From assembly GCA_944331955.1 (NCBI GenBank), contig CALVIY010000010.1, positions 1 through 38,034 of the forward strand: a stretch of DNA of 38,034 bases, given 5' to 3'. The DNA is from an uncultured Bacilli bacterium. Lineage in GTDB: Bacteria; Bacillota_I; Bacilli_A; RF39; UBA660. Each line of letters starts with the position of its first letter. The first letter of the stretch is position 1. Shown here piece by piece: positions 319 through 24,016 of the stretch. Below the pieces are notes generated by a model, which saw only the letters and a program-made list of their open reading frames with translations, ran no database searches and was not told the DNA's origin. A program made the translations under genes and the position numbers.

Positions 319-3048
<2,730 letters not shown>

Positions 3049-3064
3049 AACACCCATCCTTTCT

Positions 3065-3110
3065 AAAAAAAGAGATAAAAGTCCTAGAAATATCTACTAC
3101 CTTTATCTCT
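3065..3110 (-). terminator. Intrinsic terminator/attenuator in the leader of the recombinase operon
   Basis: Read on the minus strand, AGAGATAAA pairs with TTTATCTCT (9 bp), with a smaller TAGA/TCTA stem in the loop, and seven T's follow. It lies between the promoter at 3202-3230 and the start codon at 3048. It would therefore end transcripts before the genes unless it is disrupted, as in an attenuator. Confidence 0.75.
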
Positions 3111-3159
3111 TTAACTTTGCTATTAATAAATTGTGTACTTCCAAATCAATAACCCCCAT
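3103..3159 (-). CDS. Candidate 18-aa leader peptide of the attenuator
   Basis: A minus-strand ATG at 3159 opens an 18-codon frame (MGVIDLEVHNLLIAKLKR). Its stop lies in the 5' arm of the terminator at 3065-3110, the geometry expected of a leader peptide whose translation decides hairpin formation. No good Shine-Dalgarno sequence precedes it. The surrounding RNA also folds: CCAAATC and GATTTGG (3141-3147 and 3166-3172 on the plus strand) are complementary across the leader's start region. Whether it is translated is inference. Confidence 0.35.
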   Translation of the reverse strand: MGVIDLEVHNLLIAKLKR

Positions 3160-3201
3160 TAAAAAGATTTGGCAGGTAAATAACCCCTTGTTTTGCCTAA
3201 T

Positions 3202-3230
3202 ATAATAAAGTTTTTAAGAGAAAAAGTCAA
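3202..3230 (-). promoter_or_regulatory. Sigma-A-type promoter of the recombinase operon
   Basis: On the minus strand TTGACT (3225-3230), a 17-nt spacer and TATTAT (3202-3207). It points toward the attenuator and the two genes ending at 350 and 2284. Confidence 0.7.
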
Positions 3231-3254
3231 TATCTGTCGTTTAAATAATAATGA

Positions 3255-3530
3255 TTAAGCCATATTTTTAATGTAATCTTCTAATTCTACAAGTTTAATC
3301 TTTTTATTTAGGTTACTTATATAAATATCAGTAGAATAATTAAAGGCTAGAAAAGTAGTATTATTTACAACGATTTTATGAGGTTCAATGTAGTTTAAGT
3401 TTGTATTGTTAATTCTTTTGATACTTCCATTAGTAATGGTAGGAGTAACATGGCAGAACTCACAAATAAACTCAATACGTTGTTTCAAACTTTTTTCCAT
3501 TTCTAACTCTTGTGTAGTAAACTTTATCAT
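3255..3530 (-). CDS. Small unknown protein of the mobile element
   Basis: I do not recognise this 91-aa protein. It has no signal peptide or membrane helix. A CEFC pair near residues 23-26 could bind metal, but there is no second pair. The rest alternates Asn-rich and Ile/Val-rich segments ending in ELEDYIKNMA. The ATG at 3542 abuts the AGAAAGG box, so the ATG at 3530 (start MIKFTTQ) is preferred. The nearly identical start region of the gene at 3048 supports this. Its ribosome binding site can be masked by a small hairpin at 3540-3558. It lies between the recombinase operon promoter and the tRNA, on the same strand, and is probably part of the same element. Confidence 0.6.
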   Translation of the reverse strand: MIKFTTQELEMEKSLKQRIEFICEFCHVTPTITNGSIKRINNTNLNYIEPHKIVVNNTTFLAFNYSTDIYISNLNKKIKLVELEDYIKNMA

Positions 3531-3539
3531 AATTAACAC

Positions 3540-3558
3540 CATCCTTTCTTTTAGGATG
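3540..3558 (-). promoter_or_regulatory. Hairpin that can mask the ribosome binding site of the 91-aa gene
   Basis: On the minus strand CATCCT pairs with AGGATG across a 7-nt loop. The right arm contains the AAGGA of the ribosome binding site. Translation could thus be lowered unless the upstream arm is engaged, for example by a ribosome. Seen in sequence; function inferred. Confidence 0.4.
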
Positions 3559-3569
3559 ATTTCTATGTA

Positions 3570-3592
3570 CTTCCAAGCCCTACGGGAGTTCG
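3570..3592 (+). repeat. Inverted partial copy of the neighbouring tRNA-Gly
   Basis: On the plus strand CTTCCAAGC followed by CTACGGGAGTTCG matches the anticodon-to-T-arm part of the tRNA-Gly gene, which runs on the opposite strand about 100 bp away. The copy has C where the tRNA has TGA. Such fragments often mark attachment sites of elements that use a tRNA gene, but this one is inverted and internal to the tRNA. Its origin is therefore uncertain. Confidence 0.45.
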
Positions 3593-3598
3593 GAACAC

Positions 3599-3625
3599 AA
3601 AAAAATCAATCCGAACGGATTGATT
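3599..3625 (-). terminator. Intrinsic terminator downstream of tRNA-Gly
   Basis: On the minus strand AATCAATCCG pairs with CGGATTGATT and seven T's follow. It lies about 45 nt beyond the encoded CCA end of the tRNA. A TATAAT-like hexamer just before it (minus strand) could be chance. Confidence 0.85.
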
Positions 3626-3667
3626 ATATGTTAAGTTCAAACATAAAAGTTCGAACAGAAACGTCAC

Positions 3668-3741
3668 TGGAGCGGATGAGGAGAATCGAACTCCCGTAGT
3701 CAGCTTGGAAGGCTGAGGTTCTACCATTAAACTACATCCGC
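3668..3741 (-). tRNA. trnG: tRNA-Gly(TCC), reads GGA codons
   Basis: The minus strand shows a full cloverleaf. Acceptor GCGGATG (3741-3735) pairs with CATCCGC. The D arm contains TTTAATGGTAGAAC. The anticodon loop is CTTCCAA with anticodon TCC, and the T arm has GGGAGTTCGATTCTCC. The discriminator T is followed by an encoded CCA (3670-3668). A consensus promoter lies upstream and a terminator downstream, so the gene is transcribed alone. It sits at the border between the mobile element and the chromosome, a typical insertion neighbourhood. Confidence 0.97.
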
Positions 3742-3820: not shown

Positions 3821-4279
3821 TTATAGTGTGACAGAAATTTTTTCTTTTCTTTTGCCGCCACATATATAATTTATAGGAATGTGATATGTCATTGCTAATA
3901 AAACTAGTTTGTTAGTAGGAATTCTAGTTTTACCATCTTCATAATATGAATAACTTGACTGTCTGATGTTTAAAACTTTTGCAAATTCTCTTTGTGTTTT
4001 CTTTAATTTTAGACGATATCTTTTTAATTGATTTCCAATAAATTCTACTGTTATATCTTTTTCATAAAAAACTTCACGGTTATCTGAAGTTAAATTAAGC
4101 ATGTATTCAACATTAGTATGGAAATACCTCGCGAGTTCAACTAGTTTTTCTATTGGAAAATTAACATCGCCTAATTCCCACATAGCGTAGGTAGTTCTTT
4201 TAACGCCAAGAATTTTAGCAACTTCAAATTGTTTTAAATCATGATCTTCTCTTAAGTCTCTAATTTTCCCAAACTGCAT
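3821..4279 (-). CDS. XRE-family regulator with two helix-turn-helix domains
   Basis: A 152-aa protein made of two HTH_3 domains in tandem. The first (about 1-60) contains LKQFEVAKILGVKRTTYAMW. The second (about 85-145) contains TQREFAKVLNIRQSSYSYYE and ends in a Lys-rich tail. It is probably a DNA-binding transcription regulator in the cytoplasm. The start at 4279 (MQFGKIRDL) is chosen over the upstream start at 4297 because AAGGTGG lies 5 nt before it. It is divergent from the bacteriocin exporter operon, sharing a region of about 120 bp, so control of that operon is the obvious inference. Two HTH units in one chain could bind a two-part operator without dimerising. No effector domain is seen. 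Confidence 0.85.
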   Translation of the reverse strand: MQFGKIRDLREDHDLKQFEVAKILGVKRTTYAMWELGDVNFPIEKLVELARYFHTNVEYMLNLTSDNREVFYEKDITVEFIGNQLKRYRLKLKKTQREFAKVLNIRQSSYSYYEDGKTRIPTNKLVLLAMTYHIPINYICGGKRKEKISVTL

Positions 4280-4399
4280 CTTTACCACCTTAACCATATT
4301 TTATTACAGTCATTTAAATATTAAGAGATTTGTCAAGATAACTGATAAACAAAATATTTAGAGCAAAAAAATAGATATGGTTAATTATTATAATAGGAG

Positions 4400-6493
4400 G
4401 TGGTAATAATAAAAAGATTAAAAATAGTTTCGCAGGAATCAAGTTACGACTGTGGCCTTTCCTGTCTAATCATGATAGCTAAATATTATAATTGTAATGT
4501 TTCAAAGGACTACTTAGAAAGAGTTAGTAATACCTTTACTGATGGTACAACGATGTATGGTTTGTTGGAGGCAGCTTTATCTTTGGGCTTTGATGCTTAT
4601 GGAAAGAAAGGTAATGTCAGTGATATACCTAAAATATCTCTTCCTGTAATTGCCCATATTAAAATTGATGTAAAGAAGAACTTATATCATTATGTAGTAA
4701 TTACTAATATCACTAATAAGAAAGTTATTATTAAAGATCCTAGTAAACTTATTAAAACTCTTTCAATAGAAGAGTTTAGTAAGATAGCGACAGGTAATTA
4801 TCTTTTTATTAAGAAAACTGCTAGTATTAAGAGATTTGTAAAGGTAAAGATTATTAGAGATGAGATTATAAAATTACTTATTAATAATAAAAATACTCTT
4901 ACTTTTATGTTAATTTCAATAATACTTAGTATTAGTCTTGAGCTTTTGAATTTGTTTTCTTTAAAGATAATTTTAAATAATGCTTTAGCGGTTAAATCTA
5001 CTTACAATTTAGTAGTTTTGTTACTTATCTTTCTTTATCTTTTAGTATTAAAGACCTTTTATTCATACTTTATACAACTTACTGTTTTGAAACTTACAAA
5101 GAAACTTAGTTATCAGTTAAAACTTAATTTAATGAAACAGTTATTATCACTTCCTAATTTATACTATCAAACTAAGGAAAGGGGGATTATTATATCATTA
5201 TTTAACGATATAGATACTTTTACAGATTCATTATTGTCTTCAGTATTGATATTTATTAATAGTACTTTTATATTAATATTTATCTATATATTCTTTATGA
5301 GTTTATCAAATCTATTAGCTCTCATTCTTATAATTAGTAGTATTATTTTATTTCTTTTTATTTATTTTCAGAAGAGATTAAGTACTAATCTAATTAGTAA
5401 ATATTATCAAGTTAGAGATAATTATAATAGTAAGTTACAACAAGTAATTATTAATAATGATAAAATTAAGGGTCTACATTTAGAAGAAGTAATGTTTAAG
5501 AAAATTAGAAAAGTTACTGATAATGTAGAAGAAGAGAATTATAGAGTTAGTAGGTATAGTGAAGTTATAAGAAATATCTTAAGCTTATTAGAAGGTATTA
5601 TTTACTTATTAGTTTTAGGTGTAGGGGGCTTTATCTTAATAACTACAACTGATATTAGTTTGGCAACATTCTTACTACTAGAAGGTTTTATCTTTATGGG
5701 GTTAAGAAATGTAGAGAACTTAGTATTAATTGTCTTAAAATATCAAAATGCTAAAAAAATAAAGGAAAGATTAGATGATATCTTTAATTATGAGAAGGAA
5801 CTGTTATTACCTTTTCCTAATTATAATTACAATACTAAAAATATGGGGATAACTATATCTAATTTATACTTTAAATATAAAGATAATCTTGTTTTAAATA
5901 ATATTAATATGAAGATTAAGCCAAGAGATAAGGTATTTATTTATGGAGATTCTGGTAGTGGTAAAAGTACTCTTGTTAAATTGTTAGGAAGATTCTTACC
6001 ACTTGATTTTGGACATATTAAGCTTGGTAATATCGACTTAACTCATTATAATCTTTATGATCTTAGAAATATTATTACTTATGTTTCTAATAAAGAGATG
6101 ATTAGTAATACTAATATTAAAGAGAATATTTATTTATCTAGAAAGCCTAATATTAATCAAAATACACTTTTATCTATTACAGGAGTAAAGAAATTATTTA
6201 AAGATAAAAAATATAATCTTGATACTATTCTTTTAGAAGATGGGGGAAATATTAGTATGGGAGAAAGGTCGAGAATTAATCTTGCTCAAGCTTTCTTTAA
6301 AACTAGTTATATTTATATACTTGATGAATGTCTTAGTAATGTAGATATAGAGTTAGAAAGAGAGATACTTAAAAACATCTTAAATTATTATCAAGATAAG
6401 ATAATTATTTATATTTCTCATCGTCTTAATAATAAAGATTTGTTTAATAGAGTATTTTATTTAGAGAAAGGGAAATGCCATGAAGAGTTATAA
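4400..6493 (+). CDS. Peptidase-containing ABC transporter (PCAT) for double-glycine peptides
   Basis: Exports bacteriocin precursors and removes their leader after Gly-Gly. The N-terminal C39 peptidase (about 1-130) has Gln12, catalytic Cys18 in YDCGLSCL, His97 in YHYVV and Asp113 in IKDPSK. A transmembrane domain follows (about 155-435). The nucleotide-binding domain has Walker A GDSGSGKST (516-524), a degenerate signature SMGER (619-623; LSGGQ in most ABC proteins), Walker B YILDE (639-643) and ISHR. Full length for the family at 697 aa. The start is unusual. The GTG at 4400 overlaps the ribosome binding site AGGAGG (4395-4400); at normal spacing only ATA codons (4406 or 4409) are in frame. 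Initiation is thus either this GTG or a rare ATA. It overlaps the next gene by 14 nt. Confidence 0.95.
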   Translation: MVIIKRLKIVSQESSYDCGLSCLIMIAKYYNCNVSKDYLERVSNTFTDGTTMYGLLEAALSLGFDAYGKKGNVSDIPKISLPVIAHIKIDVKKNLYHYVVITNITNKKVIIKDPSKLIKTLSIEEFSKIATGNYLFIKKTASIKRFVKVKIIRDEIIKLLINNKNTLTFMLISIILSISLELLNLFSLKIILNNALAVKSTYNLVVLLLIFLYLLVLKTFYSYFIQLTVLKLTKKLSYQLKLNLMKQLLSLPNLYYQTKERGIIISLFNDIDTFTDSLLSSVLIFINSTFILIFIYIFFMSLSNLLALILIISSIILFLFIYFQKRLSTNLISKYYQVRDNYNSKLQQVIINNDKIKGLHLEEVMFKKIRKVTDNVEEENYRVSRYSEVIRNILSLLEGIIYLLVLGVGGFILITTTDISLATFLLLEGFIFMGLRNVENLVLIVLKYQNAKKIKERLDDIFNYEKELLLPFPNYNYNTKNMGITISNLYFKYKDNLVLNNINMKIKPRDKVFIYGDSGSGKSTLVKLLGRFLPLDFGHIKLGNIDLTHYNLYDLRNIITYVSNKEMISNTNIKENIYLSRKPNINQNTLLSITGVKKLFKDKKYNLDTILLEDGGNISMGERSRINLAQAFFKTSYIYILDECLSNVDIELEREILKNILNYYQDKIIIYISHRLNNKDLFNRVFYLEKGKCHEEL

Positions 6494-6860
6494 GAAGAAG
6501 AGATTACTTTTATTATCTTTTGTCATTACCTTTATTTTAACTATAGTATTCTTTTATCTTATAAATACTGTTAAACTATGGACTTATAATACCGTTAGTA
6601 TCTTAAATATAGATGATAATGTTATTACAGTTTTTACTACATTAGATTTAGACTTATTTGAAGATAATAATTTCTTCTATTATAATACCTTAAAATATAC
6701 CTATAAAATAAATAGTAAAGAAGATTCTGAAGATGGAGTTATCTTGATGTTAGAGTTAGAGAAATCTTTTAAATTAGTTAATGATGATATGGTAATATTT
6801 TTACCTAATAAACGGGAAACCATACTTAGTTTGATAATAGATAGTTGGAGGGTAAAATGA
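6480..6860 (+). CDS. Small membrane-anchored accessory protein of the bacteriocin exporter
   Basis: A 126-aa protein. It has a basic N-terminus and one membrane helix (about 9-29), then about 95 residues that are probably outside the membrane and beta-rich. It lies between the exporter (14-nt overlap) and the first precursor peptide (ATGA overlap), so it is tightly coupled to both. Exporters of this type usually work with an HlyD-like adaptor of 300 or more residues. This protein is far too short for that and lacks a coiled coil. It may be a minimal adaptor or an immunity protein. No family is recognised with certainty. Confidence 0.75.
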   Translation: MKSYKKKRLLLLSFVITFILTIVFFYLINTVKLWTYNTVSILNIDDNVITVFTTLDLDLFEDNNFFYYNTLKYTYKINSKEDSEDGVILMLELEKSFKLVNDDMVIFLPNKRETILSLIIDSWRVK

Positions 6861-7012
6861 AAGAATTAACAAAAAATGAAATGAAGAATATTAAAGGGGG
6901 AGCAGGTTTATCTGCTGCTGTTATAGGAATTGGTGTATCTATAATTATTTCTTTTGTAGTAGGAGTAATTAGTGGTTTTACTAATCCTGAACCATGTGGA
7001 GGAGGTGATTAG
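6857..7012 (+). CDS. Double-glycine bacteriocin precursor, peptide 1 (51 aa)
   Basis: The leader MKELTKNEMKNIKGG fits the double-glycine pattern, with hydrophobics at -12, -7 and -4, Glu at -8 and Gly-Gly at -2/-1. It should be cut by the upstream C39 transporter, releasing about 36 residues. The mature part begins AGLSAAVIGIGV, continues as a hydrophobic helix with a GVISG (GxxxG) motif, and ends in NPEPCGGGD with one Cys. GxxxG helices are the hallmark of two-peptide (class IIb) bacteriocins, and a second precursor follows one base later. GGAGGG lies 4 nt before the start, inside the preceding gene. The activity is inferred from leader, context and motif. Confidence 0.88.
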   Translation: MKELTKNEMKNIKGGAGLSAAVIGIGVSIIISFVVGVISGFTNPEPCGGGD

Positions 7013-7013
7013 A

Positions 7014-7184
7014 ATGAAAGATTTATCAGTTAAAGAGTTAAAAAATATTAAAGGGGGCTTTAGTTTAACTTCAACAGCGATTAAATATGTTGGTGATTTA
7101 ATAGAAATTTTAGTAATGGCTGGAAGAAAACTAGGGAGTTCTATTAGAAGAATAGGAAGTGGTGATATATGTCCTTTAGAATAA
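7014..7184 (+). CDS. Double-glycine bacteriocin precursor, peptide 2 (56 aa)
   Basis: The leader MKDLSVKELKNIKGG matches the canonical pattern exactly (L-12, S-11, E-8, L-7, I-4, G-2, G-1). The predicted mature peptide has about 41 residues. It starts FSLTSTAIKYVGDL, has an amphipathic middle with GRKLG (GxxxG), a cationic part SSIRRIG, and ends GDICPLE with a single Cys. A longer reading from 6972 exists, but the ATG at 7014 has GGAGGTGA just upstream and puts the leader at the N-terminus. Together with peptide 1 it looks like a class IIb pair. The lone C-terminal Cys in each peptide could allow a disulfide between them, which is inference. Confidence 0.88.
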   Translation: MKDLSVKELKNIKGGFSLTSTAIKYVGDLIEILVMAGRKLGSSIRRIGSGDICPLE

Positions 7185-7288
7185 AGAAGGCAGTAAGGTT
7201 AGTAAGTTTTAGTTTACTTAATGTTTTATTAGTACTTACTTGTTATAATTTAGGACTATTTTTAGGAGAATTGTTACAAAAAATGTAA
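7169..7288 (+). CDS. Overlapping 39-aa hydrophobic peptide, candidate immunity protein
   Basis: The frame opens at ATG 7169 inside the last codons of peptide 2 (16-nt overlap) and runs to TAA at 7286-7288. It reads MSFRIKKAVRLVSFSLLNVL and continues as one hydrophobic helix ending GELLQKM, a basic N-terminus followed by a single membrane span. GGTGAT lies just before the ATG and the stop of peptide 2 is close by, favouring coupled translation. Immunity proteins for small bacteriocins are often short membrane proteins encoded next to the precursor, which fits. Chance is not excluded for a frame this short. Confidence 0.5.
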   Translation: MSFRIKKAVRLVSFSLLNVLLVLTCYNLGLFLGELLQKM

Positions 7289-7370: not shown

Positions 7371-7574
7371 ATGGCACAAGTTCAAGTTAAAAACGGTAAT
7401 CTTGATGGAGCGATTAAAAGATATAAACAAAAACTTGCACGTAGCGGTGTCCCTTCTGAGGCTAAGAAGCATGATGCTTATGATAAACCAGGAGTAAGAA
7501 GAAGAAAGGCTAAGAAAGAAGCTATTAAGAATGCTCGTAAGAATGAACGTAAGAGAAGAAGAGAAAGAGATTAA
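7371..7574 (+). CDS. rpsU: Small ribosomal subunit protein bS21
   Basis: A 67-aa basic protein of the 30S subunit. It begins MAQVQVKNGNLDGAIKRYK and ends in an Arg/Lys-rich tail (RKNERKRRRERD), as usual for S21, with the typical RRRKAKKEA segment. The first ATG after GAAGGGAGG is used; an upstream in-frame start at 7350 lies in the ribosome binding site region. In Bacilli rpsU commonly starts the cluster that leads to yqfC-yqfD and ybeY, as here. Confidence 0.96.
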   Translation: MAQVQVKNGNLDGAIKRYKQKLARSGVPSEAKKHDAYDKPGVRRRKAKKEAIKNARKNERKRRRERD

Positions 7575-23571: not shown

Positions 23572-23596
23572 GCTTTATCATAGTCTATTTATTTTT
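23561..23596. terminator. Bidirectional terminator between typA and the lipoprotein gene
   Basis: AAATAAATAG (23562-23571) pairs with CTATTTATTT (23585-23594), with A/T runs on both sides. Both stop codons (23569-23571 plus, 23589-23591 minus) lie within the arms, a very compact convergent end. Confidence 0.85.
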
Positions 23597-23993
23597 CTAT
23601 CTTTTCTAAAAATTCTTCAATTTTTTCGTTAGATACCGCTCCATTTATTTTATGACTGGTTTCTTTTCCATCTTCAAAATACAAAACAGTTGGAGTACCA
23701 CTTACACTTGTAGTTAATTTATTAAATTTTTCAGCGTCTTCTTCAGTTAAATTGTAAAGATTAATAGAATAAGCTTCCATATTTTCTTCTTTTAGTATTG
23801 CTCTAAATCTAGGTGTAAACTCTTCACAATGAGAACATCCTGTTTGCATTACCTCTAGAATAAAACTTTCTTTATTATCGATTAATTCTTCTAATTTACT
23901 ATATTCAATATCAGTAATAACATTATTATTAGAACATCCTGTTAAGAATATAGCTAGTATAGTTATTAATAAATATTTAATTTTTCTTTTCAT
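23589..23993 (-). CDS. Thioredoxin-fold lipoprotein
   Basis: A 134-aa protein anchored on the outer face of the membrane. The N-terminus MKRKIKYLLITILAIFLTGC is a lipoprotein signal with lipobox LTGC; the Cys at about 20 becomes lipid-modified. The thioredoxin-like domain has the redox pair CSHC in EVMQTGCSHCEEF and the cis-Pro loop GTPTVLYFEDG. It probably acts as an extracellular thiol reductase or oxidase. The cysteine-rich 950-aa protein of the next locus is a plausible client (inference). The ATG at 23993 is preferred over the GTG at 24002, with AAGGAAAG upstream. It is divergent from the pilus locus. Confidence 0.9.
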   Translation of the reverse strand: MKRKIKYLLITILAIFLTGCSNNNVITDIEYSKLEELIDNKESFILEVMQTGCSHCEEFTPRFRAILKEENMEAYSINLYNLTEEDAEKFNKLTTSVSGTPTVLYFEDGKETSHKINGAVSNEKIEEFLEKIEK

Positions 23994-24016
23994 TTTTATC
24001 ACTACTTTCCTTAAGT

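Follow-up and report, generated by a model that had tools for sequence, protein, structure and literature searches.

The window analysed here, a 38,034-nucleotide stretch from an uncultured Bacilli bacterium (contig CALVIY010000010.1 of assembly GCA_944331955.1), encodes at positions 6857-7184 two adjacent double-glycine (GG) peptide precursors, A and B, and this A-B pair belongs to the near-core gene content of its little-studied family of gut bacteria and is inherited together with the C39 peptidase-containing ATP-binding cassette (ABC) exporter encoded upstream. Across the family, the C-terminal cysteines of the two peptides are either both present or both absent, a pattern that points to a disulfide-linked heterodimer. 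The genome containing the window is 1.5 Mb in size, and the exporter shares 97% identity with that of Candidatus Onthousia faecipullorum, which NCBI places in Bacilli incertae sedis. We take the genus Onthousia to belong to the GTDB order RF39, which comprises uncultured gut bacteria with reduced genomes.

The A-B operon and its inheritance

The operon extends beyond the two precursors in both directions, with protein C on the 5′ side and protein D on the 3′ side. It runs in the order exporter, C, A, B, and D, with rpsU next, and the genes from the exporter to D overlap or almost abut one another. The relevant features are (coordinates, strand):

4400-6493, +: ABC exporter of 697 residues with a C39 peptidase domain, predicted to process and export GG peptides (Pfam, NCBIfam)
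6480-6860, +: protein C, 126 residues, one transmembrane (TM) segment, outer part predicted to be rich in beta structure; probably an accessory to export (NF045999, AlphaFold)
6857-7012, +: precursor of peptide A, 51 residues; leader 6857-6901, mature part 6902-7009, Cys47 codon 6995-6997
6998-7009, +: Shine-Dalgarno-like GGAGGAGGTGAT for B, within the GGGD codons of the tail of A (sequence)
7014-7184, +: precursor of peptide B, 56 residues; leader 7014-7058, mature part 7059-7181, Cys53 codon 7170-7172
7169-7288, +: protein D, 39 residues, leaderless and B-like with one TM segment; candidate immunity protein (position-selected D set, B-D hhalign)
7371-7574, +: rpsU (ribosomal protein S21), outside the system; at many loci the conserved 3′ neighbour, preceded by a promoter-like site

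Peptide A reads MKELTKNEMKNIKGG up to its predicted cleavage site and continues with AGLS...GVISGFTNPEPCGGGD, and peptide B reads MKDLSVKELKNIKGG followed by FSLT...GRKLGSSIRRIGSGDICPLE. An initial annotation of the window had described adjacent GG precursors with leaders ending in IKGG, a GxxxG motif in each mature part, and one C-terminal cysteine per peptide. Its coordinates are exact, although the continuation of the operon into C and D had gone unremarked, and each of these features was confirmed: the motifs are GVISG in A and GRKLG in B, and each peptide has only one cysteine, near the C-terminus. The seed members of A and B were chosen using the GxxxG motifs and the later profile searches were made without that requirement; in the alignments, G36 and G40 of A and G37 and G41 of B are invariant. 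Peptide A is hydrophobic, with a TM helix, and peptide B is amphipathic and cationic, with a GxxxGSxxRR motif, a combination that would fit a membrane-spanning pair. Queried with A and B, hundreds of related genomes yield adjacent pairs, which is far above chance. Peptide A also passes the cut-off of the NCBIfam model TIGR03949 (class IIb, i.e., two-peptide, bacteriocins; lactobin A/cerein 7B), with 28.9 versus 21.5 bits, and 36 of 44 A homologues match this model at an expect value (E) of ≤0.01.

The proposal that the leaders suit the upstream exporter was borne out by an intact protein with Peptidase_C39 (E 1.5e-33), ABC_membrane, and ABC_tran domains in Pfam. It matches TIGR01193 with E 3.8e-85, although below the cut-off of that model, and a DCG motif is found in 92 of 93 exporters of the family. 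Protein C is probably an export accessory. It aligns over its full length with NF045999, the MAG1140 family (E 3.5e-4), but at 20.7 bits does not reach the curated cut-off of 35 bits; 10 of 32 homologues of C match the same model. The AlphaFold model of C, a helix followed by strands, is poor (predicted local distance difference test score of 56); a structural search with it was dropped because the model quality was too low, and searches against solved structures returned nothing useful.

The distribution of the system was surveyed in 291 genomes of the family, representing 150 genera. The exporter was found in 239 genomes (E ≤ 1e-50), A-like matches in 247 (E ≤ 0.1), and peptide B in 268 genomes and 144 genera (E ≤ 0.01). 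When 13 family genomes lacking B were checked for a C39 domain, eight had none and one had a weak match only, in line with the exporter and the peptides having been lost together. In a class-wide sample outside the family, the B profile gave only leader-region or weak partial matches, and no plasmid-borne homologues of A or B were found by tblastn. The most similar exporter was that of a congener in 44 of the 46 cases that have a congener in the set (0.7 expected), and we therefore conclude that inheritance is mainly vertical. Between close relatives, the ratio of nonsynonymous to synonymous substitution rates (dN/dS; rough values, being counts over short genes) lies close to that of rpsU (0.05-0.08) for both A (0.06-0.16) and B (0.06-0.19); the exporter comes out at 0.16, C at 0.28-0.35, and D, the fastest-evolving gene of the operon, at 0.36-0.53. 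Compared with ~97% relatives, the synonymous rate across positions 6995-7288 jumps from 0.03 in A to 0.67 in B, with 0.38 in D, which suggests that recombination had a breakpoint between the A and B genes.

Joint conservation and loss of the two cysteines

As the first alignment of A had been built with a pattern that required the cysteine, the search was redone with profiles cut before it. A C-terminal cysteine was nevertheless present in all 145 unique mature A peptides and in every full-length member of ~155 unique B peptides. At least one cysteine occurs in all of them, and exactly one in 136 of the 145 A and 149 of the ~155 B peptides. Its position is also fixed: 11 residues from the first glycine of GxxxG in A (145/145) and 16 in B (138/138 with the canonical motif).

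Exceptions were sought among the weakest-scoring loci. An automatic table listed 176 pairs with both cysteines, 8 with neither, and 7 that were apparently mixed, and the mixed cases were then read individually. Locus L156 has both cysteines (its motif is SxxxG), L296, L324, and L333 have neither (the cysteine counted was internal), and L298, L313, and L325 had been mispaired with a third, Cys-less GG peptide that lies alongside the A-B pair at these loci. The resulting count is ~180 pairs with both cysteines, 11 with neither, and none mixed. The 11 Cys-less pairs fall in three genera. Congeners retain both cysteines in two of these (g44 and g8), and in the third (g46; L296, L317, L322, and L333) several genomes carry tandem pairs, one with the cysteine in both peptides and the other with it in neither. 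The 11 pairs share descent and are thus not independent, but they represent at least three co-loss events. We also considered that the cysteine of B might be conserved merely because its codon overlaps the ATG of D; this was rejected, as the cysteine is kept in all 46 canonical-motif loci in which D was not detected.

Such joint keeping and loss is predicted by an intermolecular disulfide, and among the sequence evidence at hand, the covariation makes the best case for a covalent A-B heterodimer. The suggestion in the initial annotation that the cysteines could link the pair covalently has thus gained strong comparative support, and an A-B disulfide appears likely. Extracytoplasmic thiol/disulfide chemistry is plausible in this organism, given two proteins encoded in the genome: one that is CcdA-TlpA-like and, at 23589-24002 on the minus strand, a thioredoxin-like lipoprotein with a CSHC motif that is distantly PedC/BrcD-like (TIGR01295, E 2.3e-8, under the cut-off). 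The cysteines might instead form A-A and B-B homodimers, be modified (e.g., acylated), or bind a ligand. One cysteine per peptide would allow homodimers, the operon has no dedicated oxidoreductase, and a shared modifying activity that was lost along with both cysteines would also yield joint loss. Nonetheless, co-loss in at least three lineages, with not a single one-sided loss among ~190 pairs, is best explained by mutual bonding, and we consider these alternatives improbable.

Protein D and the proposed function of the pair

When selected by position only, a D gene was found at 100 of 155 unique loci, nearly always overlapping the end of B, and in 83 of these 100 cases it starts 15 or 12 bases ahead of the last base of B. 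Protein D lacks a leader, starts cationic, and contains a single TM segment; it is similar to B, but not to A. In hhalign, the D profile aligns with mature B across the GxxxG-x-x-R core (E 2.3e-7, score 32), whereas 100 column shuffles never exceeded 17, the reversed profile scored 12, and A against D scored 5.6. Bias from selecting D by its motif was dismissed as the source of this likeness, since the selection by position alone gave the same result. Furthermore, 27 of 98 D proteins carry a cysteine 13-17 residues past the first glycine of the motif, near the B spacing of 16. On this basis, we infer that D is a candidate immunity protein acting by mimicry of B.

We favor the reading, with a probability of roughly 0.5, that the operon encodes a class IIb-like two-component secreted peptide, disulfide-locked and membrane-permeabilizing, from which D protects the producer. 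Export and A-B pairing are its well supported parts. The C39 exporter, probably aided by C, would cut both precursors after the GG and export them. Outside the cell, the TM helix of A and the amphipathic, cationic B would pack via their GxxxG faces, and a disulfide from Cys47 of A to Cys53 of B would lock the packed pair. The heterodimer would then enter and permeabilize target membranes, whilst D, as a leaderless, membrane-anchored look-alike of B, may occupy A in the producer membrane and so confer self-protection.

Several observations weigh against this reading. Near-universal vertical inheritance and purifying selection resembling that on rpsU are unusual for a bacteriocin, the distribution of which is typically patchy. 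Peptide B misses the TIGR03949 cut-off (16.3 versus 21.5 bits), and the net charges of A (-2) and B (+1) make the pair weakly cationic for a toxin. In addition, D was undetected at 55 of the 155 loci, where another explanation is needed. Of the initial annotation, the two GG peptides suited to the C39 exporter and the GxxxG motifs in both are supported, whereas its bacteriocin label stays a proposal: the inheritance and the selection leave room for a non-killing role, and A alone fits the class IIb model.

The same breadth of distribution and low dN/dS would suit a secreted, probably disulfide-linked pair with a non-killing core role such as autolysis, signalling between cells, or interaction with the host, in which D would be its membrane partner or receptor. 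There is a precedent in the gonococcal Naps, bacteriocin-like peptides that promote autolysis and have no detectable antimicrobial activity (PMC11798529). A signalling or autolytic role is thus a serious rival, albeit one that we think less likely than not. Two co-exported GxxxG peptides followed by a separate small TM protein are how class IIb operons are normally laid out, A fits the curated model for that class, and the operon neighbourhood showed neither a receptor nor a two-component regulator. It is quite possible, at somewhat less than even odds, that D is not an immunity protein, but a small TM protein with a convergent B-like GxxxG, or a further subunit. The failure to detect it at 55 of 155 loci and its rapid evolution would be consistent with this, and short TM segments bearing GxxxG can resemble one another; the margin of the B-D score over its controls, the recurrent start position, and the near-B cysteine spacing in a subset of D proteins argue against it.

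Genomic context and comparison with known systems

Upstream of the operon, and divergent from it, lies a possible regulator:

3821-4297, -: Xre-type regulator with two helix-turn-helix domains (Pfam HTH_3, E 2.6e-23)

Farther upstream, positions 350-3741 hold a large serine recombinase and unknown open reading frames beside a tRNA-Gly gene, possibly an integrated element adjoining the operon.

Two families of the same class translate TGA as tryptophan and are mollicutes by that trait (L230 and L232-L239); in them, the orthologous exporter lies directly upstream of ybeY and era, and a C-like gene stands beside it throughout one family and in a single member of the second. In the window, rpsU and three further genes lie between D and the genes ybeY, dgkA, and era. 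The mollicute C39 module (an NF045998 exporter and the MAG1140 family) therefore shares with our operon the order of exporter and C-like gene and the ybeY-era synteny, although C scores under the MAG1140 family cut-off and genes for A, B, and D are not at that place in mollicutes. The minimal cell JCVI-syn3A retains a C39 exporter gene, 0401, for which a GG peptide has not been identified, and this gene may be the counterpart of the mollicute ybeY-era exporter. Elsewhere in the sampled genomes, where a C39 exporter is present, GG-leader proteins were found (L250-L262), often with ISGALLNG after the GG and several of them beside the gene for ribosomal protein L21; they are possible C39 substrates missed by earlier work. 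Past the leader, these mollicute proteins resemble B over 18 columns (E 0.003, probability 10%), a likeness that is suggestive only and that we treat as a lead. Tentatively, and against the odds as we see them, the family may possess a core, vertically inherited weapon or signal that consists of a disulfide heterodimer, is self-protected by a leaderless look-alike, and has its origin in an exporter module that Mollicutes also possess. Should this prove correct, one exported peptide pair would have a core locus to itself throughout a bacterial family, two-peptide toxins could be inherited vertically and not serve only as accessory weapons, and there would be a concrete kind of substrate to seek for the C39 exporters of Mollicutes, including that encoded by 0401.

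Genome-wide mining of gut genomes for class II precursors has already been published, so that single members of A or B may already be listed. In the literature searched, which included few subscription papers or preprints, we found no account of this family-wide pair, of cysteine covariation with a covalent A-B bond, or of D and immunity by a leaderless mimic. Among the closest known systems are the Naps of Neisseria, bacteriocin-like peptides with a non-competitive function (PMC11798529); they are likened to A and B by description, not sequence, and, unlike our pair, are horizontally acquired and three in number.

Among class IIb systems, Abp118 of Ligilactobacillus salivarius (TIGR03949) likewise has two adjacent GG precursors with GxxxG motifs, a C39 exporter, and a gene for a small TM protein, AbpIM, directly after the second peptide, as is D here. 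However, both A and B have one cysteine where each mature Abp118 peptide has two, only A passes the TIGR03949 model, and the Abp118 locus is plasmid-borne and accompanied by HlyD, histidine kinase, and LytTR genes, whereas ours is chromosomal, near-core, and without them. The class IIb immunity proteins CbnZ (42 residues, one TM segment; PMC6957408), BrcI, EnkIaz, and AbpIM are small, hydrophobic, and operon-encoded, as is the candidate D; AbpIM, the only one of these compared, resembles neither Abp118 peptide, in contrast to D, which resembles B. If our reading is correct, such systems would gain two features: a covalent bond between A and B that is mirrored in their paired conservation, and a leaderless mimic of one of the peptides as the means of immunity.
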